Of a stretch of DNA of 64,000 bases, positions 2,344-18,831 are shown piece by piece; the first letter of the stretch is position 1, and each line of letters starts with the position of its first letter. Under the pieces are notes generated by a model that saw nothing but the letters and a program-made list of their open reading frames with translations, ran no database searches and had not been told where the DNA came from. Location of the stretch: the NCBI GenBank assembly GCA_018266795.1, contig JAFDZV010000042.1:2308-66307 (forward strand), written 5' to 3'. The stretch comes from Bacteroidota bacterium. GTDB taxonomy: Bacteria; Bacteroidota; Ignavibacteria; OLB7. The translations under genes and the position numbers were made by a program.

Positions 2344-2391
2344 TGTCCCGTCGGTCACACCGCCACAGTTTCACCGCCGGGCACCATCACG

Positions 2392-2399
2392 TAACTTCG
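2392..2399 (+). promoter_or_regulatory. TAACTTCG box immediately before the ygjP-like gene
   Basis: TAACTTCG begins 12 bp before the ATG at 2404, with only four bases between box and start codon. Similar boxes stand in the same place before the genes at 8173, 51224 and 59864. If this is a -7 element (TAnnTTTG with one mismatch), transcription would begin at or next to the start codon. Confidence 0.4.
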
Positions 2400-2403
2400 C
2401 GCC

Positions 2404-3141: not shown

Positions 3142-3146
3142 GAGGA

Positions 3147-3209
3147 GTTATGCGTTATGTGTGATGGGTTAAATGGGCACTCATCACGCATCATTCATCA
3201 CCCATCACT
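3147..3209. repeat. Palindromic heptanucleotide-period array 1
   Basis: Four 7-bp units GTTATGC, GTTATGT, GTGATGG, GTTAAAT (3147-3174) are followed by a 7-bp spacer and four units of the inverted sense, CATCACG, CATCATT, CATCACC, CATCACT (3182-3209). GTGATGGG (3161-3168) pairs perfectly with CCCATCAC (3201-3208). The array fills the gap between two convergent genes. Two more arrays with the same period but different unit sequences lie at 16756-16839 and 59731-59834. Confidence 0.8.
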
Positions 3210-3306
3210 ACATATAGTCCACGACAGCGGAGGCGAGACCGGGGAACGTTCCCGCAGCCATCGCCTCCGCTGATTTCACCATCCGCCGGCACCATGCGGA
3301 ACCAGA

Positions 3307-4974
3307 CTACTGCAGGATCACGAGCGGATAGATAGAAACATTTCCAGCCGTTGCCACGCGCACGAAGTAGCGTCCGTTTGCAATTCCGTGCAGATCGATC
3401 GGCAGCGTGTGCTCTCCTTCACCGAGCACACCGTCGAACAACAGCGCAACACGCCTCCCCTGGGCATCGATCACGTCGGCGGCGGCATGCCCGCCCGCCG
3501 GCATCGTGAACCGCAACTCCCCCTCACCGTGCAGCGGGTTCGGCGCAACCTCCATGCCTACGGCCTTTGCCGGCTCCTCCTGCCGCACAACGCCCGCAAC
3601 ACCGGGAGCATGATAGCCAAGCATGCGGCCGGGGAGCGTGTCGCCGTCGTATGCAAGCGAAGGCATCACGTTCCGGAGCGTTCCGTTGCGCCGGGAATCG
3701 GGCGACGTGTAGTACACCGAGCAGCATCCCTTCTCGAAGACGATGTCCGCGATGCTTGCGAAGACGGAATCCATTGCCGAGGCATCGCGCACGCTGAAGT
3801 ACCGCCCGCCGGTCTCCGCGGCGAGCTTGCGAAGCGAGTCGTCACTGTCCAGCAGAAGGCCGACGGTAAACACCGGAACGCCGGCCTTCCGCGCACGCGC
3901 TATCACCTCGGTTACGGTGGTAACGACGGATCGATTGTCCTCACCGTCGGTGAGAACCACAATGGCCTTCCGCCGCATTGCCGGACGGCTCTGGATATCG
4001 CCGATGGAACGGATCACCGCATCGTACACCGCCGTCCATCCACCGGGCTGCAGCCCGTCGATAGCGCGATTCAGCAGCACCGTGTTGCTGGTCCAGTCCT
4101 GATCCAGACGGGTTGCATCGTCGAAGGAGTAGATGGCGGATTCGTCGGCGGCCCCCAGCTTGGCAACGAAGTGTTTGCCGGCATCGCGCGTCTGCGCAAT
4201 CCGCGTGGAGTTGCCGAACGGTTCGCTCATGCTGCCGCTGCGATCGAACACCATCGCCACGGAGACCGCACCGGAACGCTCGGAGCAGTCCACCCTGTCC
4301 ACCGGCACCGGCATGCCGTTCTCGGCGAGCAGAACGTGATCGCCGAAATTCTCCTGCACCACCGAATCGCGCCGCACCTTCATCGCAACGCGGATCGTCG
4401 GGAAGGCGCTGGAGTCGATGCCGCAGATCTCGAACGTCGTGAGCGGCAGTTCCTCCACCAGCACATGCAGCCAGCCGCTGTTGTTGTCGTGAGCGTCGCG
4501 CTTCACCAGGTTCTTGAAATTCCAGTCGATGATGGTGGCGGATATCGGACGGCCGTCCCCCTGGATGATCGTCGAGTAGCGATGGTCATCGCTCAGCGGC
4601 GCCTTCGGCAGCGGTTGGCCGTTGATGCGGAGCCCGTGGGAGTTCAGCAGCCGCGCATCACCCACGTAGACCGGAGGCCCCTCCGGAAACACCCGCCACT
4701 CCGGCTTCGCCCATTCCTCTGCCGGGAAGGAATAGATCCACATCCCGTCCACGCTGCTGTTGACCGTATCCTCCCACATGGAGTAGGTGCCCCATGCCGT
4801 GATGCGGTATCGATGATCGGGAAGGGTGGCGGACGGCGAATAGAGCGTATCGAGCGATCGCGAGTCGAGCTCGAACTGATACGGGAACTGGCGCTGCGCG
4901 CGTGCGGCCGTGAACGCGATTGCAAGAAGGAACAATGTTGCGAGGAATCTGCGCGGTATCGATCTGCTGTTCAT
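3307..4974 (-). CDS. Secreted von Willebrand factor A domain protein with T9SS sorting domain
   Basis: This 555-residue protein has a signal peptide (cleavage after about residue 26, TAARAQ), an unassigned N-terminal half, a VWA domain from about 235 to 410 and a type A C-terminal sorting domain from about 480 (VAPNPLHGEGELRF to NGRYFVRV). The MIDAS motif DRSGS is intact (Asp244, Ser246, Ser248) and TDGED supplies the later metal-contact loop, so it should bind a divalent cation and adhere to a partner. Known biology: such C-terminal domains direct export by the type IX secretion system and cell-surface attachment. Partner and role are not visible. A 16-bp poly-T run lies about 100 bp upstream of the start. 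Confidence 0.9.
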   Translation of the reverse strand: MNSRSIPRRFLATLFLLAIAFTAARAQRQFPYQFELDSRSLDTLYSPSATLPDHRYRITAWGTYSMWEDTVNSSVDGMWIYSFPAEEWAKPEWRVFPEGPPVYVGDARLLNSHGLRINGQPLPKAPLSDDHRYSTIIQGDGRPISATIIDWNFKNLVKRDAHDNNSGWLHVLVEELPLTTFEICGIDSSAFPTIRVAMKVRRDSVVQENFGDHVLLAENGMPVPVDRVDCSERSGAVSVAMVFDRSGSMSEPFGNSTRIAQTRDAGKHFVAKLGAADESAIYSFDDATRLDQDWTSNTVLLNRAIDGLQPGGWTAVYDAVIRSIGDIQSRPAMRRKAIVVLTDGEDNRSVVTTVTEVIARARKAGVPVFTVGLLLDSDDSLRKLAAETGGRYFSVRDASAMDSVFASIADIVFEKGCCSVYYTSPDSRRNGTLRNVMPSLAYDGDTLPGRMLGYHAPGVAGVVRQEEPAKAVGMEVAPNPLHGEGELRFTMPAGGHAAADVIDAQGRRVALLFDGVLGEGEHTLPIDLHGIANGRYFVRVATAGNVSIYPLVILQ

Positions 4975-5070
4975 GTTCTCCCCACTTCAAACGGACATGA
5001 GTTCACCGGAGATTGTGTTCATCGGAACATTCCCCATGACAGCAAAGCCCCGCCGAGGTTGACTGCGCTC

Positions 5071-5086
5071 AAAAAAAAAAAAAAAA
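5071..5086. repeat. Homopolymer of 16 A
   Basis: An uninterrupted run of 16 adenines (16 T on the minus strand) lies in otherwise GC-rich DNA, 97 bp upstream of the VWA gene start and about 80 bp downstream of the esterase gene, both on the minus strand. Such runs are prone to slippage and could tune a promoter, or could be the T-tract of a terminator for the esterase gene. Confidence 0.9.
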
Positions 5087-5102
5087 TCGTGGTGGCAAGG
5101 AT

Positions 5103-5150
5103 GCGGGAGGCCGCGCGGCACGCAGCCTCCCGCCGGCGATATCGCCGGCG
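5103..5150. terminator. Hairpins between esterase and VWA genes, possible terminator
   Basis: A 9-bp perfect stem GCGGGAGGC/GCCTCCCGC (5103-5111 and 5125-5133) is adjacent to the 20-bp perfect palindrome CGCCGGCGATATCGCCGGCG (5131-5150). On the minus strand the T16 run follows the first stem after 16 bases, further than in a canonical intrinsic terminator, so the terminator call is tentative. Confidence 0.4.
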
Positions 5151-5166
5151 CACGTTCGCGGCCGGA

Positions 5167-5898
5167 TCAGAAATAGCGATTCAGATAGTCCGGAAGCATG
5201 GCGCGCCATGTCGGCCAGTCGTGCCCCCACTCCGGTCCCCAGATCTCCACGTTGTTCGGGATGCCCTTCGCTCCGAGCACGTTCGCAATTGCCCACGTTG
5301 CTCCAGGCGCCTCGTACGAGCCCTCGCCGCTCAGGAAGTGTATATCCGACTTGCTCTTCAGAAGGCCGAGGACGGTCTCGTCGTGCAGGTTCGGGAGATA
5401 GTCCATGGGTGAGTTGAAGTACACATCCTCATCGTAGTAGCCCTTCGAATAGGACTTCAGATCGTAGATGCCGCTCATCGCGATCGTGCCGTCGAAGAGA
5501 TCGGGACGGCGGAACACGGTGTTCGCAGCGTGGAAGGCACCGAGCGAGACGCCCGAGGTGATCGTAAGCGTGCGCCCGCCGGTTGCATTGTTCATGTAGG
5601 GCACCACCTCCTCCGCCACATATGCATTGAACTGCTGGTGCCGCACCGCCTTCTGCCGCGGCGAGATGGTATCGTTCAACCAGCTCTCGCTGTTGATGGA
5701 GTTGATGGAGAAGACGCGAATCCTTCCTTCCTCGATCATCGGCTTGATCGAGTCGATCAGATAGAAACGTTCGTACTCGAGATAGTCCGCGGCGGCCGAA
5801 GGAAACATCAACAGCGCGAAGCCGCTGTGGCCGTAGATCGCGATCTCCATCTCCTTGTTCAGGTTCGGGCTATACCAGGAATCAAGCAATCGATCCAT
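5167..5898 (-). CDS. Esterase-family alpha/beta hydrolase
   Basis: This 243-residue protein belongs to the putative esterase family (PF00756-like, distantly related to S-formylglutathione hydrolase and esterase D). The start chosen is the ATG at 5898 (MDRLLDSWYSPNLNKEMEI), which matches the family's usual N-terminus; the frame is open further upstream but those residues are unlike the family. The nucleophile elbow is GVSLG in TSGVSLGAFHAANT; YFNSPMDYLPNLHD and the terminal GHDWPTWRAMLPDYL with the catalytic His are typical. No signal peptide is seen, so it is probably cytoplasmic. The physiological ester is unknown. Confidence 0.85.
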   Translation of the reverse strand: MDRLLDSWYSPNLNKEMEIAIYGHSGFALLMFPSAAADYLEYERFYLIDSIKPMIEEGRIRVFSINSINSESWLNDTISPRQKAVRHQQFNAYVAEEVVPYMNNATGGRTLTITSGVSLGAFHAANTVFRRPDLFDGTIAMSGIYDLKSYSKGYYDEDVYFNSPMDYLPNLHDETVLGLLKSKSDIHFLSGEGSYEAPGATWAIANVLGAKGIPNNVEIWGPEWGHDWPTWRAMLPDYLNRYF

Positions 5899-6121
5899 GC
5901 TGTTCGAGGGAATTGACGTGAGATGTGCATGAACGGCAACGGGTGTGCCGAGGTCGAGGTGCGCGGGATAATAAGAAAAAGCGTGGTGCGCAATGGCCGG
6001 TTCAACCCGGTCCCATTGGATTTCTCCGCCGAAGGTTCGGCCGCAGTCAACCACGCGACGCCGTTTCCCGACACGTCGTAACACGATAGTTGTTCGGATG
6101 CAGTGGCGGTGGGCAGCCGCT

Positions 6122-6811
6122 TCAGGCGCCGTGGATCACCAGTACGATCTCCCCCTTCACTGCGGCCCGCGTCTCGTAGGCGGCCTGCAGTTCCGCAAGC
6201 GTGCCGCGGTTGATCTCCTCGTACATCTTCGTCAGCTCGCGGCAGAGCGCAGCCTGCCGGTCCGAGCCCAGATGTTCCGCCAGTTCGCCGAGCGTCTTCA
6301 CGATTCTGTGCGGCGACTCGTACAGGATAACCGTACGCTCCTCCCCCGCCAGCGCGCGCAGCGCCGTCTGCCTCCCCTTCTTGTGCGGAAGGAAGCCCGC
6401 GAAGAGGAACGAGTCCGTGGGAAGCCCGCTCGCCGTGAGCGCAACAACCAGCGCGCTGGCCCCGGGGAGCGGAACAACCGTGATGCCCGCGGCGATCGCC
6501 GCGGCGATCAGCCGCGTTCCGGGATCGCTGACGCCCGGCGTGCCGGCATCGCTCACGAGCGCCACATCGCCGCCTCCCTGCAGAATGCCCACGATCTGCG
6601 GCACACGCCCCGCTTCGTTGCCGGAGAAGTAACTGATCAATCGCTTGTGCGGCAGTTCGAAGTGGCGGAGAAGATTCGCCGTCACCCGCGTATCCTCGCA
6701 GGCTACCGTCTCAACCTCGCGTAGAATGCGCAGCGCCCGGAGGGTGATATCCTCCAGATTGCCGATCGGCGTAGGCACGATGTAGAGCGTTCCCGAGGTC
6801 TGCTGGCTCAT
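6122..6811 (-). CDS. rsmI: 16S rRNA 2'-O-ribose C1402 methyltransferase
   Basis: This 229-residue protein is RsmI, which 2'-O-methylates C1402 in helix 44 of 16S rRNA using S-adenosylmethionine. It starts at the ATG at 6811 ([21 protein letters not shown]), exactly the family N-terminus. [30 protein letters not shown] and the [12 protein letters not shown] segment are tetrapyrrole-methylase fold motifs. Length is slightly shorter than E. coli RsmI (286), lacking its C-terminal extension, as in many bacteria. The start codon overlaps the tadA stop (ATGA), so the two RNA-modification genes are translationally coupled. Confidence 0.96.
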
Positions 6812-7272
6812 GTGGCGTTTCCGGCTCTCCTCATCTGAAAGAACTCGCGAAGCAGCGCGGCACACTCGGCATCCAGAATCCCGCCAAGCGTCTCGGCGCG
6901 ATGATTCAACCGTGCGTCCGATGTAATCGCGTACAGCGTCCCCGTGGCTCCGGCCTTGGCATCGTACGCGCCGAACAGAAGCTGGTCCACCCGGGCGTTC
7001 ACGATGGCTCCCGCACACATCACGCACGGCTCCAGGGTCACGTACAGACGGCATCCCTCCAGGCGCGGACGCTCCAGAGCCGTGCAGGCGGCCGTGATGG
7101 CAATCATCTCCGCATGCGCCGTTGGATCGTTCAGCCGCCCGGTCTGGTTGTGCCCGCGCCCGATCACGCGATCGTTGTACACCACAACCGCGCCAACAGG
7201 CACCTCGCCTTCGTTGAACGCACGCCGCGCTTCGTCGAGCGCGATGCGCATGAACTGCTCGTGATAGATCAT
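6808..7272 (-). CDS. tadA: tRNA-specific adenosine deaminase (A34 to I34)
   Basis: This 154-residue protein is TadA, which deaminates the wobble adenosine of tRNA-Arg(ACG) to inosine. The zinc site is complete: HAE (His53, Glu55 as proton shuttle) and PCVMC (Cys83, Cys86). NDPTAHAEM and [18 protein letters not shown] are characteristic of TadA rather than of cytidine or guanine deaminases. It overlaps rsmI by 4 bp. An 84-bp gap separates it from the lipoprotein gene that ends at position 7357, on the same strand and upstream of it. Confidence 0.96.
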
Positions 7273-7356
7273 GAATACCAGTAACGGTAGCGCACCGTGA
7301 ACACGTTCTCCGCCTTCGCCGAACGCACGATACGTTCGCAGCCGGCACCGGGCGGT

Positions 7357-7830
7357 TCAACGCTTCTGCCTGCGCACGGCCTCGCGGAATGATGCAAGGA
7401 ATGTCCGGATCTCCGCCTGATGGCTCTCCGGAAGGTGATGGGACACCATCACCAGCAGCGTTGTATCCAGGCCGTACTCGCCGCCGTTGTACATCATGGT
7501 TCCCTTCGCGAAGCCGAGCGTATCTGAACGGCCGCCGCGATAGAGGACGCAGGCGAGGAAGATACCACCCCGACTTGGTCCGAGCGCAGAGCCGCGGTGC
7601 GCCAGACGTTCCGCGATGCCGTCCAGAAGCGCGCGATCGTTGACGGACGTCCGATAGTCGGCCCAGTGCGCGTCGGGATCGAGCAGATGCTCCGGGAGGA
7701 GCGAGCCGAGCGATCGCGTGCCGAGGTGCACGGCGGCGATATCCACACCGTCACCATCGTGTGTTCCGTGGGAGGATGAGCATGCGGAGATGGCGCAGAG
7801 GAACGCCAGCAGGAATGGGATCGGCTTCAT
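7357..7830 (-). CDS. Small lipoprotein, function unknown
   Basis: This 157-residue protein has a lipoprotein signal peptide (MKPIPFLLAFLCAISAC; lipobox ISAC, Cys17) followed by a Gly/Asp/His-rich linker and a globular domain of about 120 residues. FLACVLYRGGRSDTLGFAKG and TMMYNGGEYGLDTTLLVMVS suggest a small alpha/beta fold with strands carrying conserved Gly. I do not recognise a family. It is oriented with tadA-rsmI, 84 bp upstream, and could share a transcript with them. It is divergent from the lipoprotein at 8173. Confidence 0.72.
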   Translation of the reverse strand: MKPIPFLLAFLCAISACSSSHGTHDGDGVDIAAVHLGTRSLGSLLPEHLLDPDAHWADYRTSVNDRALLDGIAERLAHRGSALGPSRGGIFLACVLYRGGRSDTLGFAKGTMMYNGGEYGLDTTLLVMVSHHLPESHQAEIRTFLASFREAVRRQKR

Positions 7831-8172
7831 GTGGGAAAATTCAACTGGACTGGATCTTCAAGCCGCGCCCCGGACTTCATGGGCCTCCCGGACCGGCGCT
7901 CCCGGGACCTGCAGGATACGAAGCGCCGTCCGACATCTGGAAGGTTGCAAGGCCGCGCGACCATGAAAGGACAAAGCTACGGCATGCGAGCTTCACGGCA
8001 GCACGCCCGATGGATCGGGGCAGCGGCCGGGAGCAGCGGCCGCCGCGTAGCCGCCGCATCGGCAACGGGCCTCAGCTGCACGGCCTCACGGCGCGTAAAC
8101 GTTGGTGAGCATTCTGCTGTCATATGCCCGAACTCTTTTTCCGGCGGCTGAATGCAACGTAACTTCAAGGCA
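7831..8172. other. Intergenic region between divergent lipoprotein genes
   Basis: No convincing gene is seen in these 342 bp. The candidate reading frames are basic, Arg/Ser-rich and unlike the neighbours. The stretch holds the 5' regions of two divergent genes, including the TAACTTCA box at 8160-8167 with a T-run (8136-8140) about 19 bp upstream of it. Confidence 0.6.
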
Positions 8173-9048
8173 ATGAACATGATTCCGATCCTCGCAACTC
8201 TGGCCGCGGCTGGCATGCTGGCGGCATCATCGGGATGCAGCAGTTCGCAGAAGGGAACCGTGCTCCCGCACGGGTCGGCACCGGCGGCCCTCGATTCCAC
8301 GCTCGAGGCGGCAGGCCCGCAGTTCGCGATCTCCACTCTTCCCAACCATCGCTACGGCTTCAACTTCGTCGCCGCCGGCAACGGCGTGGGAAGCGGGCTT
8401 CACAGGATCAATCTCTTCTCCGTCGTGATCGTCGCGCCTGACGGAACCCGCATGGACTCCGTTTCCACTACGGACATCAACACGAGCGGAACCATGAACG
8501 CGCAGACGAAGGCAACATCGGCGGCAGTCTACGGCGGCGTGGAATGGGCTGCGGCCGGCCCCGTCCGGAGCGGTGCGTATGCGGAGATGACGCTCTCCAC
8601 GGAGTCCGGCTCCGTTCAGCGGCGCATCCCGTTCGACGGCCCCGTGCCGACCGTCAAGCCGGAGCAGAGTGCCCGCAGCCCGATCGAGATGACGCTGGAT
8701 GTGGACTCGCGCGGCACCGGTGCGGAGTTCACGCTCCGGGTACACCGCCGCGGCCCCGCGCCGGAGGGAGAGTATCTTCCAACCGGCGAGAAGTATCGCA
8801 TCGAGATCCTGAGCGATGATGGAAACGTTATCTGGTCATCATCGAAGGGGATGATGTTTACACAGGGGCTCGGCGTGGTTGAACCTCGCGAGGTTGGCGG
8901 CACGGCGGAGTACAGGGCATTGTGGAGCGGCACGAGCGATCGTACGCACAGCCGTCTGGAGCCCGGCACCTATCGCATCGTGGCTACCCTTCCAGCGAAG
9001 CCGGCACCATACATCATTCGAGAGGAGTTTACCTGGAGTGGGCGATAA
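8173..9048 (+). CDS. Lipoprotein with BsuPI-like C-terminal domain
   Basis: This protein of about 291 residues has a short signal peptide with lipobox SSGC and then two regions. The first (to about 165) resembles secreted immunoglobulin-like folds. The second, about 175-290, resembles the intracellular proteinase inhibitor BsuPI fold (YRIEILSDDGNVIWSSSKG, then TYRIVATL), a beta-sandwich. The start is uncertain: ATG codons at 8152, 8173 and 8179 are in frame. I chose 8173 because a TAACTTCA box lies 13 bp upstream, as in three other genes here, although 8152 would give a more positively charged signal-peptide N-region. It overlaps ribD by 11 bp, which suggests co-transcription. Confidence 0.78.
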   Translation: MNMIPILATLAAAGMLAASSGCSSSQKGTVLPHGSAPAALDSTLEAAGPQFAISTLPNHRYGFNFVAAGNGVGSGLHRINLFSVVIVAPDGTRMDSVSTTDINTSGTMNAQTKATSAAVYGGVEWAAAGPVRSGAYAEMTLSTESGSVQRRIPFDGPVPTVKPEQSARSPIEMTLDVDSRGTGAEFTLRVHRRGPAPEGEYLPTGEKYRIEILSDDGNVIWSSSKGMMFTQGLGVVEPREVGGTAEYRALWSGTSDRTHSRLEPGTYRIVATLPAKPAPYIIREEFTWSGR

Positions 9049-10171
9049 CAACGGATCTTCCGCACCAAACCAGTTGGAGTACGACGAACTGATGATGCGC
9101 CGTGCGCTGGATCTTGCGCGGCGCGGCGCCGGTTCGGTGAGCCCGAATCCGATGGTGGGCGCCGTGATCGTCGACGCCGAACGGCGCTTCGTTTCGGAGG
9201 GATGGCACCAGCAATACGGCGGCCCGCATGCCGAGGCGAACGCGCTTGCCGCAGCGACCGGGCGGGACCTCGCCGGCTGCACCATGTATGTAACGTTGGA
9301 GCCGTGCAGCCATCACGGCAAGACGCCGCCGTGCGCCGAAGCGGTGGCAGCAAGCGGCATCAGCCGCGTTGTCGTGGCGATGCGCGATCCCAATCCCCTC
9401 GTCAGCGGCCGCGGGAACAGGCGCCTGCGCGAAGCGGGCGTGGAGGTGGTAGTCGGGACATTGGAGCGGGAGAGCCGCCTGCTCAACGAGGCATACATCC
9501 ACTTCATCTCCACCGGCACTCCGTTCGTGACGATCAAGATGGCGCAGACGCTGGACGGCTACACAGCGCTTCCCACCGGCGAGTCCCGCTGGATCACGAC
9601 GGAGGCTTCGCGCCGGCGCGTGCACGAACTGCGCGCCGGGCACGACGCCGTGATGGTGGGCACACGCACGGCGATGCTGGACAATCCGTCGCTCACGCTC
9701 CGCTATGGAGTTACGGGCCGCAACCCGCGCCGCGTCACGCTCGATCGCCAGCTTGCCCTCCCCACCGATCTCCGCATCTTCAGCGACGACCATCGGGATC
9801 ATACCATCCTCTTTACCGCCGACGCGCTGGCATCCACCGGCCGCGCCCAGGAGCTTCGCGATGCGGGGGTGAAGGTGTTCGGTATCCCGATGACGGCGAA
9901 GGGACTGCAGCTCCCGGAATTGCTGCGCGTTCTCGGCGAGCAGGGCATTGCCTCGCTGCTGGTTGAAGGGGGCGCCGAGCTTGCCGGCGCGCTGATCAAG
10001 GAGGGGCTCACGCAGAAGCTGATCCTCTTCATCGCACCAAAGCTGTTCGGCCGCGGCTGGCCGGCGTTCACCGGCATCGAGGTGACCAGCCTGGATCAGG
10101 CCTACACCATGCGCATCCACGACGTGGAACGAATCGCGGACGATTTGATGGTAACGTCATACTGGGAATAG
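9038..10171 (+). CDS. ribD: Bifunctional riboflavin biosynthesis deaminase/reductase
   Basis: RibD catalyses the second and third steps of riboflavin synthesis: deamination of the pyrimidinone from GTP cyclohydrolase II, then NADPH-dependent reduction of its ribose. The N-terminal deaminase carries HAEAN (His64, Glu66) and PCSHHGKTPPC (Cys90, Cys99). The reductase domain (about 150-375) has VTIKMAQTLDGYTALPTGES and SLLVEGGAELAGALI. The GTG at 9038 gives 377 residues, close to E. coli RibD (367), preceded by GAGAGGAG; the longer TTG start is rejected. No FMN riboswitch is seen; the gene overlaps the upstream lipoprotein gene. Other rib genes are not in the window. Confidence 0.96.
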   Translation: MGDNNGSSAPNQLEYDELMMRRALDLARRGAGSVSPNPMVGAVIVDAERRFVSEGWHQQYGGPHAEANALAAATGRDLAGCTMYVTLEPCSHHGKTPPCAEAVAASGISRVVVAMRDPNPLVSGRGNRRLREAGVEVVVGTLERESRLLNEAYIHFISTGTPFVTIKMAQTLDGYTALPTGESRWITTEASRRRVHELRAGHDAVMVGTRTAMLDNPSLTLRYGVTGRNPRRVTLDRQLALPTDLRIFSDDHRDHTILFTADALASTGRAQELRDAGVKVFGIPMTAKGLQLPELLRVLGEQGIASLLVEGGAELAGALIKEGLTQKLILFIAPKLFGRGWPAFTGIEVTSLDQAYTMRIHDVERIADDLMVTSYWE

Positions 10172-10176
10172 CTGCC

Positions 10177-12270
10177 ATGAGCAGGACCGCCCGCACACTC
10201 CATCGGTTCCTGAAGCGGAGGAGACTGGAGCTCCTGGTTGCCGCGTTCCTCGCGCCGCTGCTCAGCGTCGTGGCATCCAACCTTCCGCAGATGAACCTGG
10301 TGCAGTCCGCCATCAACGACGACAACTTCACCGACTTCGTACTGCAGACACGCGGCGAACTGGCGATCGACACCAACATCCGCGTTCTCACCTACGACTC
10401 CTCCATTCTCGACTCCAACGATCTGGTAAACCGGGCCACGCTGGCGATGAACCTTGCCGCTCTGTTCGAGTTGAAGCCGCGCGTTGTCGGCGTGGACTTC
10501 CTGCTGGAGACGGAGCGGCCCGATGCTCCGGACGGCGATGCGATGCTGAGCGCACTGATCGGCGATCACCCGGACAACCTGGTGTTCGGCATCTTCTACG
10601 AGGACTCGCTGAACAGCTTTCGCGTCCCTCCGAAAAGCTTCCGGCTGAACGACCGGCAGATCGGCTGCATCAATCTGATCACCGATGACGACAACACCAT
10701 CCGCACGTTCACGCCAACCTGGGGAGCGGATACCGGAAGGCGCTGCGAGGCGTTCGATTTGAAGCTTGCGCGCGCCACGGACAGCACCGCCGCAGAATAT
10801 CTGACGTCGTTCGGCGACCAGAACTTCGTAATCGATTACGCCGGCGGCATCGGCGAGACGATTCACAACGGCAGTGAGGGCGATCAGATCTTTCCCGTGA
10901 TGCCGTTGAAGACCGTATTCGACATCGTCTCCTCCGGCGACAGCGCCAAGACTGCGGCCTTGCGCGAACAGTATCGGGGGAAGACCGTGCTGGTGGGATA
11001 CGGCGACATCCGCAACGGGCAGGTGACGAACGTGGTGGACCGGTTCTACACGCCGCTCAAGCCGGAGAAGAACACGCTGCCGGACATGCATGGCGTGGCC
11101 ATTCACGCGAACATCCTCAACGACATTCTTCGTCGCAGAGTGATGGAGAAGATGCCGATGGCAACCAACATACTCTGGAGCGCCGTGCTGGTGCTGATCC
11201 TGCTTGCCGGACGCGAGCGCCTGAAGCGTGTGAAGCATCCCACACGCAAGGCCGTGCTCACCTACACCGGGTTTGCCGTTCTCTTCGCTCTGGCAGCGCT
11301 TCTTCCGGTCGAGGCATTCCGCTACACACCGTACAAGTTCTCCATCTTCACCCCCATCGCATCGCTGCTGCTTGCGGTGCCGACGCTGGAAGGATTGGGG
11401 AAGGGGATCGATCTGCTGCTGGATCTGCGGCGACGCGTGTACCTGCGGCACGCGCTGGCCCCCGCGATGCGGGCGGGGATGCTGGGAATATTGAAGGCGT
11501 GGAGCATCGAGGAGCGCATCGAGCGCGCATCCCACTTCCTCGAACGGCAGTTTCACGCAGCCGGCGCGATTCTCTTCGCGGAGGCGGCCGCAGGGAACTT
11601 TCCGCGATTCCCGGCAACGGCCGTCGGCTCCCCGACGCTCGCGCGCCTCGTTGACGCGATTGACCGCGCCACCGCAGCCGAGGCTCCGCTGTCGCCGCGC
11701 GCCGCGCAGGCGGTTGCGATCCTTCGTACGCTGGCCGCCGAGCCGGTGCTGGCGGCGACGCTTCGACTCTCGCGTTCACTCTACATCGCCTTGAATGAAA
11801 TCCGCCGCCAGTCCGAAGAGATGGATGAGCCGGAGGCGAATGCGGATGCAGGGCTGCACGACGAGGCGCAGGCCAGAACGACGGACTATGCGGACCTGGC
11901 GCTGAAGACGCTTGCAGGACAGAAGGGCGCGGACGACGAGGAGCACTTCGACGAGCTGTACGCTGCACTGGAGCGCTTCGTCGCCGCGGCCGCCGCGATA
12001 CTCACAACGAACGATGGCGCCGTGGCAGATCTGCTTCCGCCGGGCGAGACGCTTCCCCCGTACGTCTTCACATCCCGCTGTTCGCTCCACCGTGTGGAGG
12101 AGCAGTTCATCTACTTCGGCGAGCAGGAGGACGCGAACAACCGCGATGATTTCTTCGACCTCCTCTACGGCGGCAATACCATCCGCTGCCAGCCCGGGGA
12201 ACACCCGGGCCTTACCCGATTCCGCGAACTGAGTGCCGCAGCGCGCCGGCCGGGCGAAGGAGATGCATAA
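10177..12270 (+). CDS. CHASE2-domain membrane receptor without recognisable output domain
   Basis: This 697-residue protein has an N-terminal transmembrane helix (about 18-35), an extracytoplasmic CHASE2 sensor domain (about 40-320, with VVGVDFLL, GKTVLVGYGD and DMHGVAIHANILNDIL) and three closely spaced helices (about 328-345, 359-378, 388-403), the standard CHASE2 topology. CHASE2 normally feeds a histidine kinase, Ser/Thr kinase or cyclase. Here the last 290 residues are a mostly helical, Ala/Glu-rich cytoplasmic region without kinase, GGDEF or cyclase motifs. It starts 5 bp after ribD and is probably in the same operon. Ligand and output are unknown. Confidence 0.85.
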   Translation: MSRTARTLHRFLKRRRLELLVAAFLAPLLSVVASNLPQMNLVQSAINDDNFTDFVLQTRGELAIDTNIRVLTYDSSILDSNDLVNRATLAMNLAALFELKPRVVGVDFLLETERPDAPDGDAMLSALIGDHPDNLVFGIFYEDSLNSFRVPPKSFRLNDRQIGCINLITDDDNTIRTFTPTWGADTGRRCEAFDLKLARATDSTAAEYLTSFGDQNFVIDYAGGIGETIHNGSEGDQIFPVMPLKTVFDIVSSGDSAKTAALREQYRGKTVLVGYGDIRNGQVTNVVDRFYTPLKPEKNTLPDMHGVAIHANILNDILRRRVMEKMPMATNILWSAVLVLILLAGRERLKRVKHPTRKAVLTYTGFAVLFALAALLPVEAFRYTPYKFSIFTPIASLLLAVPTLEGLGKGIDLLLDLRRRVYLRHALAPAMRAGMLGILKAWSIEERIERASHFLERQFHAAGAILFAEAAAGNFPRFPATAVGSPTLARLVDAIDRATAAEAPLSPRAAQAVAILRTLAAEPVLAATLRLSRSLYIALNEIRRQSEEMDEPEANADAGLHDEAQARTTDYADLALKTLAGQKGADDEEHFDELYAALERFVAAAAAILTTNDGAVADLLPPGETLPPYVFTSRCSLHRVEEQFIYFGEQEDANNRDDFFDLLYGGNTIRCQPGEHPGLTRFRELSAAARRPGEGDA

Positions 12271-12354
12271 CCGACAGCGGCGAGCGAGCGCACCAAGGGT
12301 TTCCAACAGAACGGTCCCGAACGTCATCGACGGCTGTTGGCTGCCGCGAGCCTT

Positions 12355-12407
12355 GTTCTTTGTACGCGCGCCTGCGGCTCGCCGCGAGTTCCTGGTCAGT
12401 TGCAGGA
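12355..12407 (+). repeat. Dispersed repeat family 1, copy A
   Basis: The segment reads TTGTACGC-GCGCCTGCGGCTCGCCG, then GAGTTCCTGGTCAGTTGCA-GGA. It shares this order of blocks with copy B (52761-52836) and, in its first half, with copy C (55365-55408). It lies in the gap after the CHASE2 gene. No coding signal is seen. Confidence 0.6.
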
Positions 12408-12486
12408 CTACATCGAGCGGAAGAAGACAACGCCCCGGCTGTGTCAGGAACTCTGGAGAGCAGAGACGGAACACGTATGTAGCAGA

Positions 12487-12517
12487 GAGGGATCGCGGCA
12501 GTGCAGCGATCCCCCTC
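12487..12517. terminator. Hairpin between convergent CHASE2 and IPT protein genes
   Basis: GAGGGATCGC (12487-12496) pairs with GCGATCCC plus CTC (12506-12517, two extra C). It lies between two genes that converge. No clear T-tract follows on either strand, so it is a weak candidate for a bidirectional terminator. Confidence 0.45.
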
Positions 12518-12555
12518 GTCATTCATACAATCATGCGACGGTTGCTCCCGTGCGC

Positions 12556-14166
12556 CTACCCGGTTACCGGAGCCGCGGGCTGCGCGTCGCTCCCGGACCC
12601 GCCGTCGGGTGGCCCGTCCGGCGCAGGAGCCGGCACGGAATCGGCTGCGGCGGCCTGATCTCCATCGCCAGCAGCGGGCCGGTCGCCGCCGGGAACTGCG
12701 GCCTGGGTGGTGATCAGAGTCTGCGCCGGACGCCCCGCGAGTGTCAGCGTGGCACGCTGCCCGTCGGGATTCACCACAACCACCTGCCTCGGCCCCCCCA
12801 TGGACTTGGTGGCCGCACCGCCGCCAGACACCGCCTTCAGCTCCGTTGCATTGTTTCCGGACTTCGTTGGATCCACCTTCGTGGTGCTCACGGTGCCGGC
12901 CTCCACGCCGTCGATCAGAACCTTCGCATTCGGCGCGAGGTTCTGTCCCGTGATGGAGTAGGTGCCGTCGCCGTTGGGAACGGCGTTGGTGACGGTTGGC
13001 CCGGGACTGCGAATCATCTTGCCGCCGATGTATCCTGCGGAACTGAGCCCCATCACCGCGAGCAGTTCCTGCGGGATCACCGGCATCATGGTGGAGATGG
13101 AATAGTTCTTCAGCAGGATCACCACGAACATCACGGAGCCCACCAGCGTCCAGAGCACCTGTTGCACGCGCTCCAACGCGATCACGCCGCCGTGCACGAA
13201 GAGATCCGCCAGCACCGGCGCACCGGTACCGCTCCCCTTCGCTCCCTTCACCTGCTCGGTTGCCTGCGCGCTGAGCAGCGTGCCCAGGCTGATCATGAAG
13301 GTCCAGGCGAAGCCATCCAGCGACGGGAACTCGTAGATGTGCTCGACAAGCGCACGCGAGATGAAGAGGAATCCGTAGGAGAAGACAAGGATCCCCGTCC
13401 ACCAGATGAACTGGGCACGCGACAGGCTGTAGGTGTTGTTGCGGGGATCGATCAGGAGCAGCTGCAGCCAGTTGCGCTTCGGCTCGTTGGGAAGCGGCCT
13501 GTAACGCCGCACCACCAGCCAGATGATCAGCGCCATCACCAGCATCGGAATCAGCGCGATCGCGATGAGGCCGTACAGGTCCTTGACGATTACCTCCTGC
13601 GGCGCATGCGCAAGGGCGTGTCTGGGATCGGTGTCGGAATAGACCAGCACGCGATAGCGGCCGTTGCGTGTCTTCGAGGGAATGCGTACGAAGAGATTGG
13701 TGCCGCTGATGGCATCGACACCGAGCCGGATCGGCTGCGAATCCGGCGGCGCCTCCGTGCTGATGAGCGCAACAACGGGCGTGTCCGTTCGCGGCGCACG
13801 GTTCAATTGAAGCATCAGGCTGCCGCCGCTGACAACGCCATGCACACCGTTCGGCGCCGCCTTGAGCCCGAGGAACTGCAGTTGCGCCTGCGAGGTATCC
13901 GAAGCGGAAGCCGCAGAGACCGACGTTGCCGAGCTTGCCGAAGCGGTGGTGGGTGATGTGGCAGCAGGCACGGCTGCGGCACGGCTCTGAGCGGTGGACG
14001 CGGCCGCCGCCTTGCCGGTGTCCTGACTCTTCGCACGCTGCGTCGTGTCCGGTGTCTGCGATCTGGCGCCCGATAGCGATGCCAGCAATAGAATGCCTGC
14101 GAACAGGATGGCATGCATGCAACGCAGGCTCTCCCCTGCTCCCCTGCCTGATGGTGTGGTTGCCAT
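12556..14166 (-). CDS. Polytopic membrane protein with IPT/TIG-like C-terminal domain
   Basis: This 536-residue protein starts at the ATG at 14166 (GAGGGA just upstream). It has a signal or anchor helix (about 17-35), a Ser/Ala-rich linker, a beta-rich extracytoplasmic domain (about 95-190), helices at about 199-219, 253-272, 284-301, 336-353 and 368-382, and an IPT/TIG-like beta-sandwich (about 388-495: YSITGQNLAPNAKVLIDG) before a Pro/Asp-rich tail. NNTYSLSRAQFIWWTGIL and the SSAGYIGGKMIRSPGP stretch match a family of poorly characterised IPT-containing membrane proteins that I recall only as annotated hypotheticals. Function is unknown; the order of helices and IPT domain suggests a membrane-anchored binding protein. 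Confidence 0.78.
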   Translation of the reverse strand: MATTPSGRGAGESLRCMHAILFAGILLLASLSGARSQTPDTTQRAKSQDTGKAAAASTAQSRAAAVPAATSPTTASASSATSVSAASASDTSQAQLQFLGLKAAPNGVHGVVSGGSLMLQLNRAPRTDTPVVALISTEAPPDSQPIRLGVDAISGTNLFVRIPSKTRNGRYRVLVYSDTDPRHALAHAPQEVIVKDLYGLIAIALIPMLVMALIIWLVVRRYRPLPNEPKRNWLQLLLIDPRNNTYSLSRAQFIWWTGILVFSYGFLFISRALVEHIYEFPSLDGFAWTFMISLGTLLSAQATEQVKGAKGSGTGAPVLADLFVHGGVIALERVQQVLWTLVGSVMFVVILLKNYSISTMMPVIPQELLAVMGLSSAGYIGGKMIRSPGPTVTNAVPNGDGTYSITGQNLAPNAKVLIDGVEAGTVSTTKVDPTKSGNNATELKAVSGGGAATKSMGGPRQVVVVNPDGQRATLTLAGRPAQTLITTQAAVPGGDRPAAGDGDQAAAADSVPAPAPDGPPDGGSGSDAQPAAPVTG

Positions 14167-14371
14167 TGATCCCTCGTTGTTGGTCGGTCTGTATTGAACA
14201 CGAACGCAGCCATGCTGCCACGGACATCGTTCGGTATGGATCACATGCTACGGACGCTGATACGAGACTGATGGAGAATATCGATGGGAGCCTATCGCGC
14301 AAACGTACTGAATGCAGTCACGCAGTCCAACAATGGATTGCGGACGCGGACCGTGGTTCGCATCGGGACCG

Positions 14372-15724
14372 TCACCACCGCCATATGAACGAGAGCACGG
14401 GAGCCAGATGTGGATTGGTGATCTCACCCGAGAGTGCCCCGGTTCCCTGAACCGAACCGAAGTTTGCGAGGTCGAGTCCCAGGCCGGCATCGAGGGCCCA
14501 GTTCCTTCCGAACCAGCGCAGCGTTATCGCGAACGGGTTCAGCCCGGATGACTCGATGACGTACGTCTCGGCCGCCAGCTTCAGGCCGCGCGCAAGCGTA
14601 ACGTCGCCTCCGATTCCAACGATGTAGGCCTGCCGCTTGAACGTCTCGGCGGTCGTGGAGTGGCGCTTCCAACTGTAGCCAAGTGCCAGCGAGATCCGGT
14701 TGCGCCGGTTGCCGTAGCTGAATACCGAGTACGGAGCCTCCACGGAAATGTCCGATTCCTTCGTGGACGTGTAGGCAAACTGTCCCCCCACCGCCGCATT
14801 GAACAGCCCGGTGCGCAGCACCTCGTACTTCACCCCGGCGGTGGCAACGAAGAGTTTGGAGATGAAGTCCGGCACGGCAGCCGTGCCGAGTAGAAGCGTG
14901 AGGCGGTCGGTTGGCCCATAGCCGGCAAGCCAGCCGGCCAGATCGTAGTTGCCCGCGAAGAAGCCCCCACCCCCAAGGGACTCGGCCGTCGGCATCAGAA
15001 TATTCCGGAACGTTGTGGGATCCACCAGCGGCGGCACGGTATCGCGGGGCATGGTGTCCGGCTTCGGCGGCGGAGGAGGAACTACGGCCGCGGCGGTAAG
15101 CGGCTTCTCGATCACATACTGTGCCAGCCCTGCATTCGGCTGGTCGCGCCGGATATAGATCCGGATCATCTCCCGAATATTCTCCGGCTGGGCTGCGTGA
15201 TAGCAGACCTGATAGTGGAAGTCCGATCCGCTGGCCTGCCACGGCGCACTGCCGGGGGGCATGATCACGTGGACGTTCGGATTGCTCACCACGATCGAAT
15301 CCACCAGACGGCGGTCGGAGGTAACGATCTCGCATTGAAGGCAGGTGTCCCCGCCAACGCGAACCTTGCCGGTATACTCCTTCCTGATCTGCCAGTTCTG
15401 CGCTCGCAGCAGTACCGTGGCGAACGTGCCGTCGCAATCGTGCACGGTAAGATCCACCTGCTCGCTGGTGGTTGCATCGCCAACGTTGATCACCACATCC
15501 ACACTGGTCGGGCACCCGCTGATCGGAGGCACAACCACGGTCGTCTGCGACGATGCCCGGAAGCGGATCTTGTCGATGCCATCCGCATTCCGCACCGTGA
15601 CAACGTTCTCGCCTGGATAAAGCTCAGATGGATAGACTTCGCTTCGCTCACCCCGACCCTGTGCCATCATCTGGCCAACGGCGACAAGGAACAGAACGAA
15701 CGCTACAAGAAATCCCACGCGCAT
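14372..15724 (-). CDS. Secreted two-part protein with probable outer-membrane beta-barrel, function unknown
   Basis: This 450-residue protein has a signal peptide (MRVGFLVAFVLFLVAVGQMMAQ). Residues about 25-210 are beta-rich with paired cysteines (GCPTS, HDCDG, DTCLQCEI, YQVCYH), suggesting an immunoglobulin-like periplasmic domain with disulfides. A Pro-rich linker (PPPPPKPDTMPRDTVPP) follows. The last 210 residues alternate Gly and aromatic residues in strands (GFFAGNYDLAGWLAGYG, RISLALGYSWKRH) and end in FIWRW, as expected for a small outer-membrane beta-barrel of 8-10 strands. No family is recognised. It lies upstream of the IPT membrane protein gene on the same strand, 205 bp apart. Confidence 0.75.
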   Translation of the reverse strand: MRVGFLVAFVLFLVAVGQMMAQGRGERSEVYPSELYPGENVVTVRNADGIDKIRFRASSQTTVVVPPISGCPTSVDVVINVGDATTSEQVDLTVHDCDGTFATVLLRAQNWQIRKEYTGKVRVGGDTCLQCEIVTSDRRLVDSIVVSNPNVHVIMPPGSAPWQASGSDFHYQVCYHAAQPENIREMIRIYIRRDQPNAGLAQYVIEKPLTAAAVVPPPPPKPDTMPRDTVPPLVDPTTFRNILMPTAESLGGGGFFAGNYDLAGWLAGYGPTDRLTLLLGTAAVPDFISKLFVATAGVKYEVLRTGLFNAAVGGQFAYTSTKESDISVEAPYSVFSYGNRRNRISLALGYSWKRHSTTAETFKRQAYIVGIGGDVTLARGLKLAAETYVIESSGLNPFAITLRWFGRNWALDAGLGLDLANFGSVQGTGALSGEITNPHLAPVLSFIWRW

Positions 15725-15875
15725 TGTTGGCTGCGATTGTCGGCCGGCCTGTCAGGATGCCGGCCAGTGATGTCTGCATCGCACGTTCACTGTGAAGCTC
15801 ACCTCGCATCGGTGAGTCGAATCGGGATGCAATGAACCGTGACGTGGCCGAATATAACCACCTTGGAACTGGAAG

Positions 15876-15906
15876 TTACCGCACGAATGTGATTTCCTAT
15901 CTTTCA
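15876..15906 (+). promoter_or_regulatory. Possible promoter of the CPBP protease gene
   Basis: TTA (15876-15878) is followed after 20 bp by TATCTTTC (15899-15906), one base from TAnnTTTG, 20 bp before the ATG at 15927. It is weaker than the promoters at 2314 and 32484. Confidence 0.3.
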
Positions 15907-15926
15907 CAATCACATTGAGTTCCCGC

Positions 15927-16730
15927 ATGGACAATCCGATTGCTACCGACCCCTTCCAGCCGGCTTCCCCGGAGCCCCGACCGGTCCTCGACGGATCCGA
16001 GGCCCCCGTCACGGCGTATCTGCGCCTCTCCCGGACATGGACCTACAGCTATCTCTTCGTGCTGCCGCTCTTCCTGTTCTACGAGATCGGGATCAGGCTG
16101 GCAAATGCCGGAAGCACGATGGAGGTGCGCGTAAGCGCAGACGTCTTCGTGAAGCGGCTGCTCGGGATGGTGGGGATCGACAGCACGCTCTGGTTGAGTG
16201 CGCTGCTCGTGGCTCTCGGAGCCGGCATCGTTCTCTACGAACGAAGACACCACATCCCGGTCAGGCCGCGTTACTTCGCATGGATGTTCGGCGAAAGCCT
16301 GGCATACGGGCTTGTCATCGGAATGATCGTTGCATGGTTCGTCGCGGAACTCTTCAGCCTGGTATGGCCGCCGCTGCTCCAGATGGCCGGGCGCGTCGGC
16401 ACCATGCGGTCCGTGGTACTCTCGCTCGGCGCCGGAGTCTACGAGGAGCTGGTGTTCCGCCTCCTTCTCGTCTCGGCGTTCGTCTGGCTGCTGAAACTGG
16501 CGCGCGGGTTGAAGCAGCGCCAGCGGTACGCCATCGCCGCAATCGTCGGCGCGCTAATCTTCTCCGCGGTTCACTACATCGGCAGCCTCGGCGACACGTT
16601 CACCATTCCCAGCTTCACCTTCCGATTCCTGATGGGCCTCGTGCTGAACCTTCTCTTCCTCTGGCGCGGGTTCGGCATCGCCGCAATGACACACGCTCTC
16701 TACGATGTCATCTTCACGCTGATGCACTGA
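15927..16730 (+). CDS. CPBP-family intramembrane metalloprotease
   Basis: This 267-residue protein is a CPBP/Rce1-type membrane glutamyl-type protease homologue. About six hydrophobic helices are visible from residue 40 onward. The catalytic motifs are intact: EELVFR (Glu173, Glu174, Arg178), SAVHYIG (His216) and THALYD (His256). In eukaryotic Rce1 these motifs cleave prenylated proteins; bacterial members are linked to bacteriocin self-immunity or unknown roles. No bacteriocin gene is seen nearby. The start is the ATG at 15927; the frame also has an upstream TTG. Confidence 0.92.
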   Translation: MDNPIATDPFQPASPEPRPVLDGSEAPVTAYLRLSRTWTYSYLFVLPLFLFYEIGIRLANAGSTMEVRVSADVFVKRLLGMVGIDSTLWLSALLVALGAGIVLYERRHHIPVRPRYFAWMFGESLAYGLVIGMIVAWFVAELFSLVWPPLLQMAGRVGTMRSVVLSLGAGVYEELVFRLLLVSAFVWLLKLARGLKQRQRYAIAAIVGALIFSAVHYIGSLGDTFTIPSFTFRFLMGLVLNLLFLWRGFGIAAMTHALYDVIFTLMH

Positions 16731-16755: not shown

Positions 16756-16839
16756 GTTGGGGCTTGGAGCTTGGAGCTTGGGGCTGGGGGACCAAGAACG
16801 AACCACCAAGAACGAAGTACCAAGAACGAAGTGCCAAGG
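16756..16839. repeat. Palindromic heptanucleotide-period array 2
   Basis: Twelve consecutive 7-bp units stay in register: GTTGGGG, CTTGGAG, CTTGGAG, CTTGGGG, CTGGGGG, then ACCAAGA, ACGAACC, ACCAAGA, ACGAAGT, ACCAAGA, ACGAAGT, GCCAAGG. The left arm (CTTGG) and right arm (CCAAG) are inverted. It lies between convergent genes ending at 16730 and 16846 and fills almost the whole gap. Confidence 0.85.
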
Positions 16840-16845
16840 CCCCAC

Positions 16846-18831
16846 TCAGAACGGCGTCCAGGAGAGCCCCAACTCCAGATAGGTCTCCGTGAAATCGCTC
16901 GATGGAAGTGTCACGCGCGCACGAGCGTAGTTCGTGGAGGAATTCCGCACCGTCCCTCCCATCAGGTTCAGCGTGAGAACCGATGAGCCGCTTTCGTTCA
17001 GCGAGAAGTCGTGCGAGAGATTCAGTTCGAACGTCGTGCGGGAGTCCACGCGATCGCGCAGTTCCACCGTCCTGTTCGCCACCGTCACAGTGGGCCGGCC
17101 GTAGTCGCGATGATTGAACGTCAGGTTCAGCGATGCGAGGATATCGAGCGGGAACATCTGCATTGCGACAAGCTGGATGGAGGTCCCCTTCCAACTGAAC
17201 GGATCGTCCGAGATGCTGGCCTTCCCGTCGCTCAACGCCCGCACCAGCCCGCCGCTGAAGCCCAGCGTAAGGCGTGGATGCAGCTCCGGCGTGGACTGAT
17301 ATCCCAGCGCTCCGCCAAGGACGGTGTTCGGCCCTGGACGCAGGAACACTCCGGCGCCGAAGGTAAGGAGCGATGTGGAGCCGGCCGTATCCGCGATCAC
17401 GCTGGCGTCCCCGCTCTGCGTATCGGACACCGGGTTCGCATAGTTCTTGAAGCCGGCGCCGGCATCCAGCACAACCATCGTCTTCTCCGACGGGACATAA
17501 CGGAACTGCGCAACGAAGTCGTGCTGCGTGGAGCTGAATACCGGCGCGTTGGGATATTGATCGGACGTGAGCGTATACGATCCCCATACCGACCACTCCG
17601 CCGAGAGGCGCTGCTCCAGCAATGCCGAGGCGCTGATACTGGTGGAGTTGTACTGCAGCAACGTGGAATCGGCAGTGTTGAGATAGCGCACGATGCCGGC
17701 ACTACCGTTCAGGCGGAACTGATCGGCACCGGCATCGCTGCTCGCCGTGTAGAAGAAGTAGTCGTCCCGGCTGTTTCTGATCAACGACTGATGCGAGAGC
17801 GAAAGCGGTGCGTACTCGTCCGGACCATCGTCCAGCAGTTCGCTCGCCTCCTCATCGGTCTGGGTTGCATCATCGGAGTCGTCGGCATCGTCATCCGGTT
17901 TCAGCTTCGCGAGATCGGCAAGGAACTGGTCGAGCTGCCGTGCGGCATCACGGGCCGCCGGATCGGCACCAAGCCCGCCGCGCAGCTGGCGTATCACCTG
18001 CCGCACGCCGTCGCCAACGCCCTTGATGGACTCCGCCGAGGCGCTGAAGAGATCCAGGGTATCGGAGAGATCGTCCAGGCGGTCGACGATGCGCGCCAGA
18101 AGCGAATCGGCCGGCACGCCGGCGCTCTTCGCTGCAGACGTGCCGTTCGCGCCGGGAACAGGCTGCACGGTCTGCAGCGAATCGTCATCGGCGGCATCGT
18201 CGTCGTCGAAGAGATCGTTTTCCAGATCGTCAAGGTCGTCCGAGTCGCCGTCACCATCGCCCGAATCGACGGCCCCGGTCTGCGCCGGAGGCGTGGGCGC
18301 AGGCGTGGGGGGCGTGCCTGCATGAGGCCGCGTATACAGAACGCTGTCCAGCATGTCCGCCACCGCATCCAGCTGCGCAACCAGGGCGTCGGTGCTGGTG
18401 GAGGCTCCCTGCGATGCAACGGGAGTATTCGCAGCCGGAGCCGGCTCGCGATACCCGAACAGTTTGGCATTCCGACTCTGCAGCGCCACGGCGAAGGTGT
18501 GCTCGATGAGGTTCTGCTGGCTTTGCTTTCCCCACAGCGTAAGCCCCAGCGAATAGCTCGGCGTTATGCTCAGGTTCTCCGAAGGACGAATCGCATAACC
18601 GAACCAGATGCTCTCATTGCCCAGAACGTCCCCGGCAGTGGTTGCGCGCTTGTCGTTCTTGTTCAGCTCGTTGGGGTTGTTGTTGCTCTGACTCACCGAG
18701 GAGATCTCGAGACTCGGTTGCGCAACGGCCACGGCCCCGGCAACGCACGCAAGCGCCAGGAGTTGAACGATACGAATGGCCGCACGGAGCCTGAGCCCCG
18801 AACGGGGAGGGCTGGAGGAAGAAATGCTCAT
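16846..18831 (-). CDS. Putative outer-membrane beta-barrel protein with acidic Asp-rich insert
   Basis: This 661-residue protein starts with an extended signal peptide (cleavage near VAVAQPS, residue about 38). Residues about 40-130 and 345-661 look like barrel strands (NLSITPSYSLGLTLWG, LTFGAGVFLRPGPNTVLGG) and the protein ends in LSWTPF with terminal Phe, the usual outer-membrane signature. Between them lies a 200-residue insert with Pro/Thr stretches, runs of Asp (DSGDGDGDSDDLDD, DDDDAADDD) and helical segments (SLLARIVDRLDDLSDTLDLF). The acidic runs suggest calcium binding or an extended surface loop. No family is recognised. Confidence 0.72.
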   Translation of the reverse strand: MSISSSSPPRSGLRLRAAIRIVQLLALACVAGAVAVAQPSLEISSVSQSNNNPNELNKNDKRATTAGDVLGNESIWFGYAIRPSENLSITPSYSLGLTLWGKQSQQNLIEHTFAVALQSRNAKLFGYREPAPAANTPVASQGASTSTDALVAQLDAVADMLDSVLYTRPHAGTPPTPAPTPPAQTGAVDSGDGDGDSDDLDDLENDLFDDDDAADDDSLQTVQPVPGANGTSAAKSAGVPADSLLARIVDRLDDLSDTLDLFSASAESIKGVGDGVRQVIRQLRGGLGADPAARDAARQLDQFLADLAKLKPDDDADDSDDATQTDEEASELLDDGPDEYAPLSLSHQSLIRNSRDDYFFYTASSDAGADQFRLNGSAGIVRYLNTADSTLLQYNSTSISASALLEQRLSAEWSVWGSYTLTSDQYPNAPVFSSTQHDFVAQFRYVPSEKTMVVLDAGAGFKNYANPVSDTQSGDASVIADTAGSTSLLTFGAGVFLRPGPNTVLGGALGYQSTPELHPRLTLGFSGGLVRALSDGKASISDDPFSWKGTSIQLVAMQMFPLDILASLNLTFNHRDYGRPTVTVANRTVELRDRVDSRTTFELNLSHDFSLNESGSSVLTLNLMGGTVRNSSTNYARARVTLPSSDFTETYLELGLSWTPF

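Follow-up and report, generated by a model that had tools for sequence, protein, structure and literature searches.

Possible REP-like gene-junction palindromes made of degenerate heptamers in a genome of the Ignavibacteria

A 64-kb stretch of the draft genome of a Bacteroidota bacterium of the Ignavibacteria (contig JAFDZV010000042.1, positions 2,308 to 66,307; hereafter the window) contains, at positions 16756-16839, a palindromic array of 7-bp units. We tentatively propose that this focal array belongs to a genome-wide set of gene-junction palindromes that resemble repetitive extragenic palindromic (REP) elements, are made of degenerate heptamers and would function as hairpins, a reading that we regard as plausible without being confident of it. 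It draws on the recurrence of such arrays between genes, their closeness to stop codons, the conservation of the core of the unit and their presence at the gene junctions of phages.

Results

The focal array consists of a GT-rich arm of five units (16756-16790; on the plus strand GTTGGGG, CTTGGAG, CTTGGAG, CTTGGGG and CTGGGGG) that directly abuts, with a spacer of 0, an AC-rich arm of seven units (16791-16839; on the plus strand ACCAAGA, ACGAACC, ACCAAGA, ACGAAGT, ACCAAGA, ACGAAGT and GCCAAGG). A 14-bp block, ACCAAGAACGAAGT, is present in 3.4 copies within the AC-rich arm. Comparison of the array with itself gave agreement at 68% of bases for lag 7 and at 70% for lag 14; lags other than multiples of 7 gave 14-36%. 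Of the 35 left-arm bases, 22 match when the right arm is reverse-complemented. Neither the periodicity nor the palindromy was equalled in any of 20,000 Markov shuffles. The first-pass annotation, made from the letters alone, had described twelve 7-bp units in register with inverted sides and had argued that the array is not a copy of a mobile element. The 84 bp indeed divide in this way, and the closest other match in the genome is a stretch of 44 bp at 91% identity, in agreement with both statements.

The genome comprises 5.97 Mb in 71 contigs, of which stretches amounting to 1.23 Mb, window included, were scanned without any preset motif. Period-7 tracts were found 29 times compared to 0 in Markov shuffles, so the excess over shuffled sequence that the first-pass annotation had anticipated was real; it lay at periods 7, 14, 21 and 28. 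Most of the other over-represented periods were divisible by three, which repeats within coding sequence would produce. Merging the arms gave 43 arrays, 42 of them intergenic, in tandem (27), convergent (10) and divergent (5) gaps. In relation to the gaps available, arrays occupy 27 of 451 tandem (6%), 11% of convergent and 5 of 99 divergent gaps (5%).

Read on the AC-rich strand, the units follow the profiles [ACG]C[CGA]AAGN, AC[TC][GA]ACN and AC[TC]CATN (the first two hereafter ACCAAGN and ACTGACN), with six core positions fixed, the seventh base variable and an identical profile in both arms. Inverted arms, likewise anticipated for other loci, were recovered as 36 facing pairs with one vocabulary per pair, a match of vocabulary that is partly built in since the arm finder relied on the three main vocabularies and one minor one; for period and polarity, the motif-free scan and the whole-genome search for facing arms are free of this bias. 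Whole-genome searches for the unit patterns gave 146 matches of the ACCAAGN type (at most 2 mismatches) and 211 of the ACTGACN type (at most 1 mismatch), as overlapping counts, against 42 and 0, respectively, for the reversed-pattern control. One array (C10:101957) changes vocabulary while keeping register.

The vocabularies are distributed patchily beyond this genome. ACCAAGN is abundant only in the genome itself among this and 60 relatives, and in the same search two genomes from a different genus within the family were rich in ACTGACN, which was absent from the single same-genus relative. Among the matches listed, four ACCAAGN units occur in at least 120 stretches of named genomes, many of them single-armed, from the Verrucomicrobiota, Planctomycetota, Bacteroidota, Chloroflexota, cyanobacteria, Acidobacteriota, Pseudomonadota and Actinomycetota. 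The Verrucomicrobiota among them include culturable, array-rich isolates such as Brevifollis gellanilyticus. The earlier proposal that period and palindromy are conserved and sequence is not was therefore not supported: a handful of vocabularies, each with six core bases fixed, turn up repeatedly within the genome, and one of them, ACCAAGN, does so in many phyla.

Facing arms of one vocabulary have a fixed polarity. In all 36 pairs the GT-rich arm lies 5' and the AC-rich arm 3', and the opposite order was found 0 times. The exact ACTGACN pattern GTCAGTNGTCAGT..ACTGACNACTGAC, GT then AC, gave 59 matches per strand in the genome and 15 in that of a relative (G004), counts that overlap so that distinct loci are fewer, and forward and reverse counts represent the same loci because the pattern is its own reverse complement; the AC-then-GT order had 0 matches across 61 whole genomes. 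Inverted pairs of any unit from other phyla and viral contigs, chosen partly by motif, were GT-then-AC in 45 cases and AC-then-GT in 3, and an Oscillatoria contig (L167) has the GT-then-AC polarity too. Since tandem, convergent and divergent gaps share the polarity, it is not set by gene direction.

The arrays hug the ends of genes. Their median distance to a stop codon was 9 bp compared to 22 bp on random placement (p 0.002), and 38 of 47 lay within 20 bp of a stop codon, as against 22.6 on random placement (p < 0.0002, below 1 in 5,000). At tandem junctions the stop codon was the nearer gene end in 21 of 27 cases (p 0.003). Over all arrays, start codons lay at a greater distance, with a median of 59 bp. 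That the units serve to place a stop codon in every frame was rejected, by reasoning alone, as suiting ACTGACN and not ACCAAGN. The arrays also fold better than shuffled sequence, with a median z of -2.3 (the plus strand of the focal array, -2.4), compared to -1.0, -0.5 and -0.2 in array-free convergent, tandem and divergent gaps, respectively. No T-run follows either focal arm, so that the focal array lacks the GC-rich hairpin with U-tract of an intrinsic terminator, and Rfam covariance models had no match at gathering thresholds in the 64-kb window.

Comparison of relatives points to rapid turnover. Positions 376-16730 of the window are collinear with G001, a genome of the same genus, yet at the places of the arrays at 3147 and 16756, the two alignable junctions, G001 has ordinary GC-rich inverted repeats in which the heptamers are absent. 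The genes of two further relatives, G003 and G004, are about 78-91% identical in DNA, yet most compared gaps hold unrelated sequence: an array faces none, vocabularies differ, or unrelated 14-mers occupy one place. At one such junction (G003 C24:42550 and G004 C130:54471) the two carry 14-bp tandem repeats unrelated in sequence, AACTGCCACAGGAC and GAACTTCCGCAAAC. We infer that whole arrays are gained and lost fast.

Some of the viral contigs chosen by the presence of four ACTGACN units carry the palindromes at high density. Phage L370 has one in 9 of 9 gaps of at least 25 bp, and the tail operon of L438 in 10 of 12 gaps between same-strand genes; several palindromes of these two fill the whole space between a stop codon and the start codon of the following same-strand gene. 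PHROGs names (tail terminator, tape measure, head-tail adaptor, tail completion, tail assembly, minor tail, tail fibre J) identify tailed phages where genes could be named; in L432 none of the tested genes had a PHROG match. Several dense contigs are interrelated and therefore not independent counts, and their relatives among named phages were distant ones alone (at most 35% identity), which left the host unassigned. Placing a plain terminator at every tail-operon junction would defeat the purpose of the operon; the pattern therefore speaks for a role between cistrons, or else for mutation that operates at each gene boundary. As a separate observation, in eight dense contigs (L370, L374, L386, L396, L423, L377, L432 and L438) nearly every junction holds a palindrome, and scant or no space is left there for a usual ribosome-binding site.

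The focal array lies between convergent genes, as first annotated: a PF02517 gene for an Rce1-like/CPBP intramembrane protease (15915-16730, plus strand), whose stop lies 26 bp before the array, and a gene without a Pfam family (16846-18831, minus strand), whose stop lies 6 bp from it. At lag 7, an identity of at least 70% across 28 bp was reached in only three regions of the window, exactly those named in the first-pass annotation. The second array (3147-3209; AC[TC]CATN vocabulary) has a GT-rich arm, GTTATGCGTTATGTGTGATGGGT, followed by an AC-rich arm, ACTCATCACGCATCATTCATCACCCATC, and is flanked by convergent genes at 2404-3141 (plus strand, PF01863) and 3307-4935 (minus strand, VWA). The third (59731-59834; ACTGACN vocabulary) likewise has a GT-rich arm followed by an AC-rich arm. 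The architecture that all three had been said to share thus holds for period 7 and inverted arms; by the script's gene calls, the gap at 59731-59834 is divergent and not convergent. Their units, described as entirely different, do differ, the three arrays being one each of ACCAAGN, ACTGACN and AC[TC]CATN, but every vocabulary recurs at many loci in the genome. The window also holds a perfect 35-bp tandem repeat of 2.3 copies (49273-49353) with GATATGA-like heptamers.

The spacers between arms range from 0 to about 150 bp and are mostly unique sequence. Some contain other dispersed intergenic repeats, giving nested palindromes (CTGTCATTCTGAGGGAGCAAAGCGACCGAAGAATC; GCTCGGCTGCGCCTCGC; CCCTCACCCC..GGGAGAGGGG) at C1:154790-154940 and C10:101870-101960 of this genome and at C138:24417-25186 of G003. 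A centre resembling GGAAAATGCATC is common, in either orientation, to the ACTGACN arrays C4:9799, C10:43879, C34:28888 and C28:109344, a likeness that hints at copying between loci. Mobile-element copies were rejected as an origin: the focal array has no close copy and spacers are mostly unique, although a few ACTGACN arrays share a GGAAAATGCAT-like centre. In this genome, stretches of some 100 N fall within or beside arrays (C10:282470, C44:17256, C44:67321 and C9 near 34727); because the assembly breaks at arrays, array lengths in drafts are underestimated.

Discussion

REPs are tied to a Y1 (RAYT) transposase. Like REPs and bacterial interspersed mosaic elements (BIMEs) (PMC3733652), the arrays are dispersed intergenic palindromes that follow stop codons and have an intrinsic polarity; unlike them, they have neither hairpin units of 20-40 bp nor GTAG/CGTC tags, and share no common unit beyond the heptamer. 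The closest likeness is to the GGGAATC/GGGANTN heptamers of Xanthomonas, of which each genome has 70-75 pairs in ‘convergent orientation’ and in whose G-quadruplex (G4)-capable repeats transcripts start or end above the frequency of a control set (Rehm et al., 2015; PMC4692102). These too are dispersed, intergenic 7-bp repeats with a fixed core and free positions that hug stop codons, form head-to-head pairs and vary in length and sequence between sister species at the same genes. On account of these head-to-head pairs, the stop proximity and the turnover, the present arrays are a variant of an already described kind (PMC4692102), palindromic heptamer arrays having been reported there; the first-pass annotation had pointed to no earlier description of palindromic arrays with different units in this group. 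The Xanthomonas study considered one vocabulary per organism, with few inverted pairs in Nostoc, whereas several vocabularies coexist in the genome considered here. The Xanthomonas heptamers further differ in their G-quadruplex-forming GGGA arm: the cores here, CTTGG(T), GTCAGT and ATGAGT, hold GG at most and fall short of three guanines, so we do not claim the G4 subtype for these arrays, some GGGG-bearing units in the left arm of the focal array notwithstanding.

To our knowledge, the short tandemly repeated repetitive (STRR) sequences of cyanobacteria have not been described as head-to-head palindromes; the cyanobacterial sequence compared here is the Oscillatoria contig L167 alone. As portrayed in the Xanthomonas study (PMC4692102), the STRR heptanucleotides of heterocystous cyanobacteria (Calothrix) resemble the arrays in being tandem, degenerate and intergenic. 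TAACTGA direct repeats of Beggiatoaceae, Cyanobacteria and Bacteroidetes (MacGregor, 2015; PMC4679880) are also patchily distributed intergenic heptamers, are near ACTGACN in sequence and show 7-nt indels between strains, but they are mostly direct and lie just before start codons, with one indirect (inverted) repeat in the main genome. Strict polarity as a general rule, vocabularies shared across phyla, uncoupled arms and occupation of phage junctions were not found in the open-access literature searched.

According to the hairpin reading that we tentatively favour, the two arms would pair in the transcript via their cores, in any of several registers, into an intercistronic or 3'-terminal hairpin that may separate or protect the adjoining messages, as REP/BIME elements do, while the arms would lengthen through duplication of 14- or 21-bp blocks, as block identity suggests. 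This covers the position of the arrays, the conserved core and the phage junctions. Several observations weigh against it: (i) the arms are not co-adapted, as own partners pair no better than swapped ones; the match at the variable base was 0.51 for own and 0.57 for swapped partners in 12 ACTGACN arrays (p 0.98) and 0.36 and 0.43 in 4 ACCAAGN arrays (p 0.88), and five phage sets, partly non-independent, pointed in the same direction (p 0.78-0.99); (ii) the fact that the GT-rich arm invariably precedes the AC-rich one is left without an account, as are the uncoupled arms; (iii) 100 kb of G001 held no period-7 tract, meaning that a sister species lives without them; (iv) the minus-strand RNA of the focal array folds no better than chance (z -0.4); (v) convergent gaps are at most mildly favoured (about twofold, p 0.07); (vi) genes were called by a simple script and not by a standard gene finder. 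A slight avoidance of perfect palindromes is possible, in partner scores that are not adjusted for arm length.

A functionless origin, in which polymerase slippage makes heptamers in intergenic DNA that then decay and template switching at hairpins inverts them, is in our judgement unlikely, though it deserves to be taken seriously. It accords with the position that PMC4679880 and PMC4692102 attribute to Mrazek 2007, with the appearance and disappearance of arrays between sister species, and with the perfect one-sided expansions of 14-15 units that exist. Whole-unit identity was 29% at lag 2 compared to 6% for ACCAAGN, and 40% at lag 3 compared to 14% for ACTGACN, which suggests that arms were enlarged through duplication of 14- and 21-bp blocks. 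Slippage by single units, however, should leave adjacent units with the same variable base, and they share it at chance level (0.30 against 0.28 and 0.33 against 0.33 expected from other arrays), which argues that it is not the source of most adjacent units. Under neutral decay one would not expect six positions to stay intact and a single one to become random in each array and each of its arms, and template switching predicts matching arms, whereas own partners were no more similar than strangers, for which reason copying of one arm from the other was rejected. The ‘slippage plus inversion’ of the first-pass annotation is therefore a poor fit: the variable base is shared neither by adjacent units nor between arms, though units at lag 2 and lag 3 do share it. 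Slippage accounts for growth and turnover alone and leaves polarity and stop-anchoring unexplained.

The best geometric fit of all readings is offered by a repair scar, in which a terminal or telomerase-like polymerase adds GT-rich heptamers to the 3' ends on either side of a break or gap and the ends are then joined; we nonetheless think it quite improbable. Because both 3' ends are extended before joining, each side would have GT repeats on its inward 3' strand, the geometry of two fused telomeres with GT-rich then AC-rich repeats and a short spacer, and independent arms, a single vocabulary per array and a polarity indifferent to gene orientation would follow. Bacterial DRT10 does copy tandem repeats off an RNA template (PMC12632851), but PF00078/RVT_1 had no match in the three array-rich genomes (G000, G003 and G004), where a very divergent reverse transcriptase could escape, and no Ku was found in the array-rich genomes; a DRT10-type origin and Ku end joining were rejected on these grounds. 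Nor would a repair scar be expected to hug stop codons or to come near to saturating phage junctions. We give a similarly small chance to a dedicated process, present in many phyla and in phages, that would lay down degenerate heptamers, rich in GT, from either side of a junction towards its middle and so yield palindromes of fixed polarity, and that, itself or through the machinery reading its product, would act at every gene boundary and hence give phages a palindrome at nearly every junction.

A directional protein-binding array, with a protein that reads the 6-bp core and requires facing sites, appears a little more doubtful still. A fixed core with one free base resembles a binding motif, and the fixed head-to-head orientation and the switch of vocabulary in register at C10:101957 are consistent with it; but several proteins would be needed per genome, one for each vocabulary, and the spacers of 0 to about 150 bp and a 7-bp step that turns sites to different faces of the helix argue against it. 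Plain bidirectional terminators are the least probable of all, since, despite the post-stop position, the palindromy and the ordinary hairpins at orthologous G001 junctions, the pattern requires no U-tract, divergent gaps (5 of 99) are as array-rich as tandem ones (27 of 451), termination at nearly every junction of phage tail operons would silence the operon, and the deficit of ordinary hairpins in convergent gaps with an array (1 of 10, compared to 28 of 81 without) is a suggestive trend that is not significant (p 0.16), on which account replacement of ordinary terminator hairpins by arrays was rejected as well.

In practical terms, several scaffold gaps (N runs) of this assembly fall inside arrays. 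Heptanucleotide repeats of bacteria have been known for decades and were classed as products of slippage. Slippage does not satisfy the constraints set by the strict polarity, the free seventh base, the uncoupled arms and the saturation of gene junctions in phages, and these constraints turn the origin and role of the repeats into testable hypotheses.
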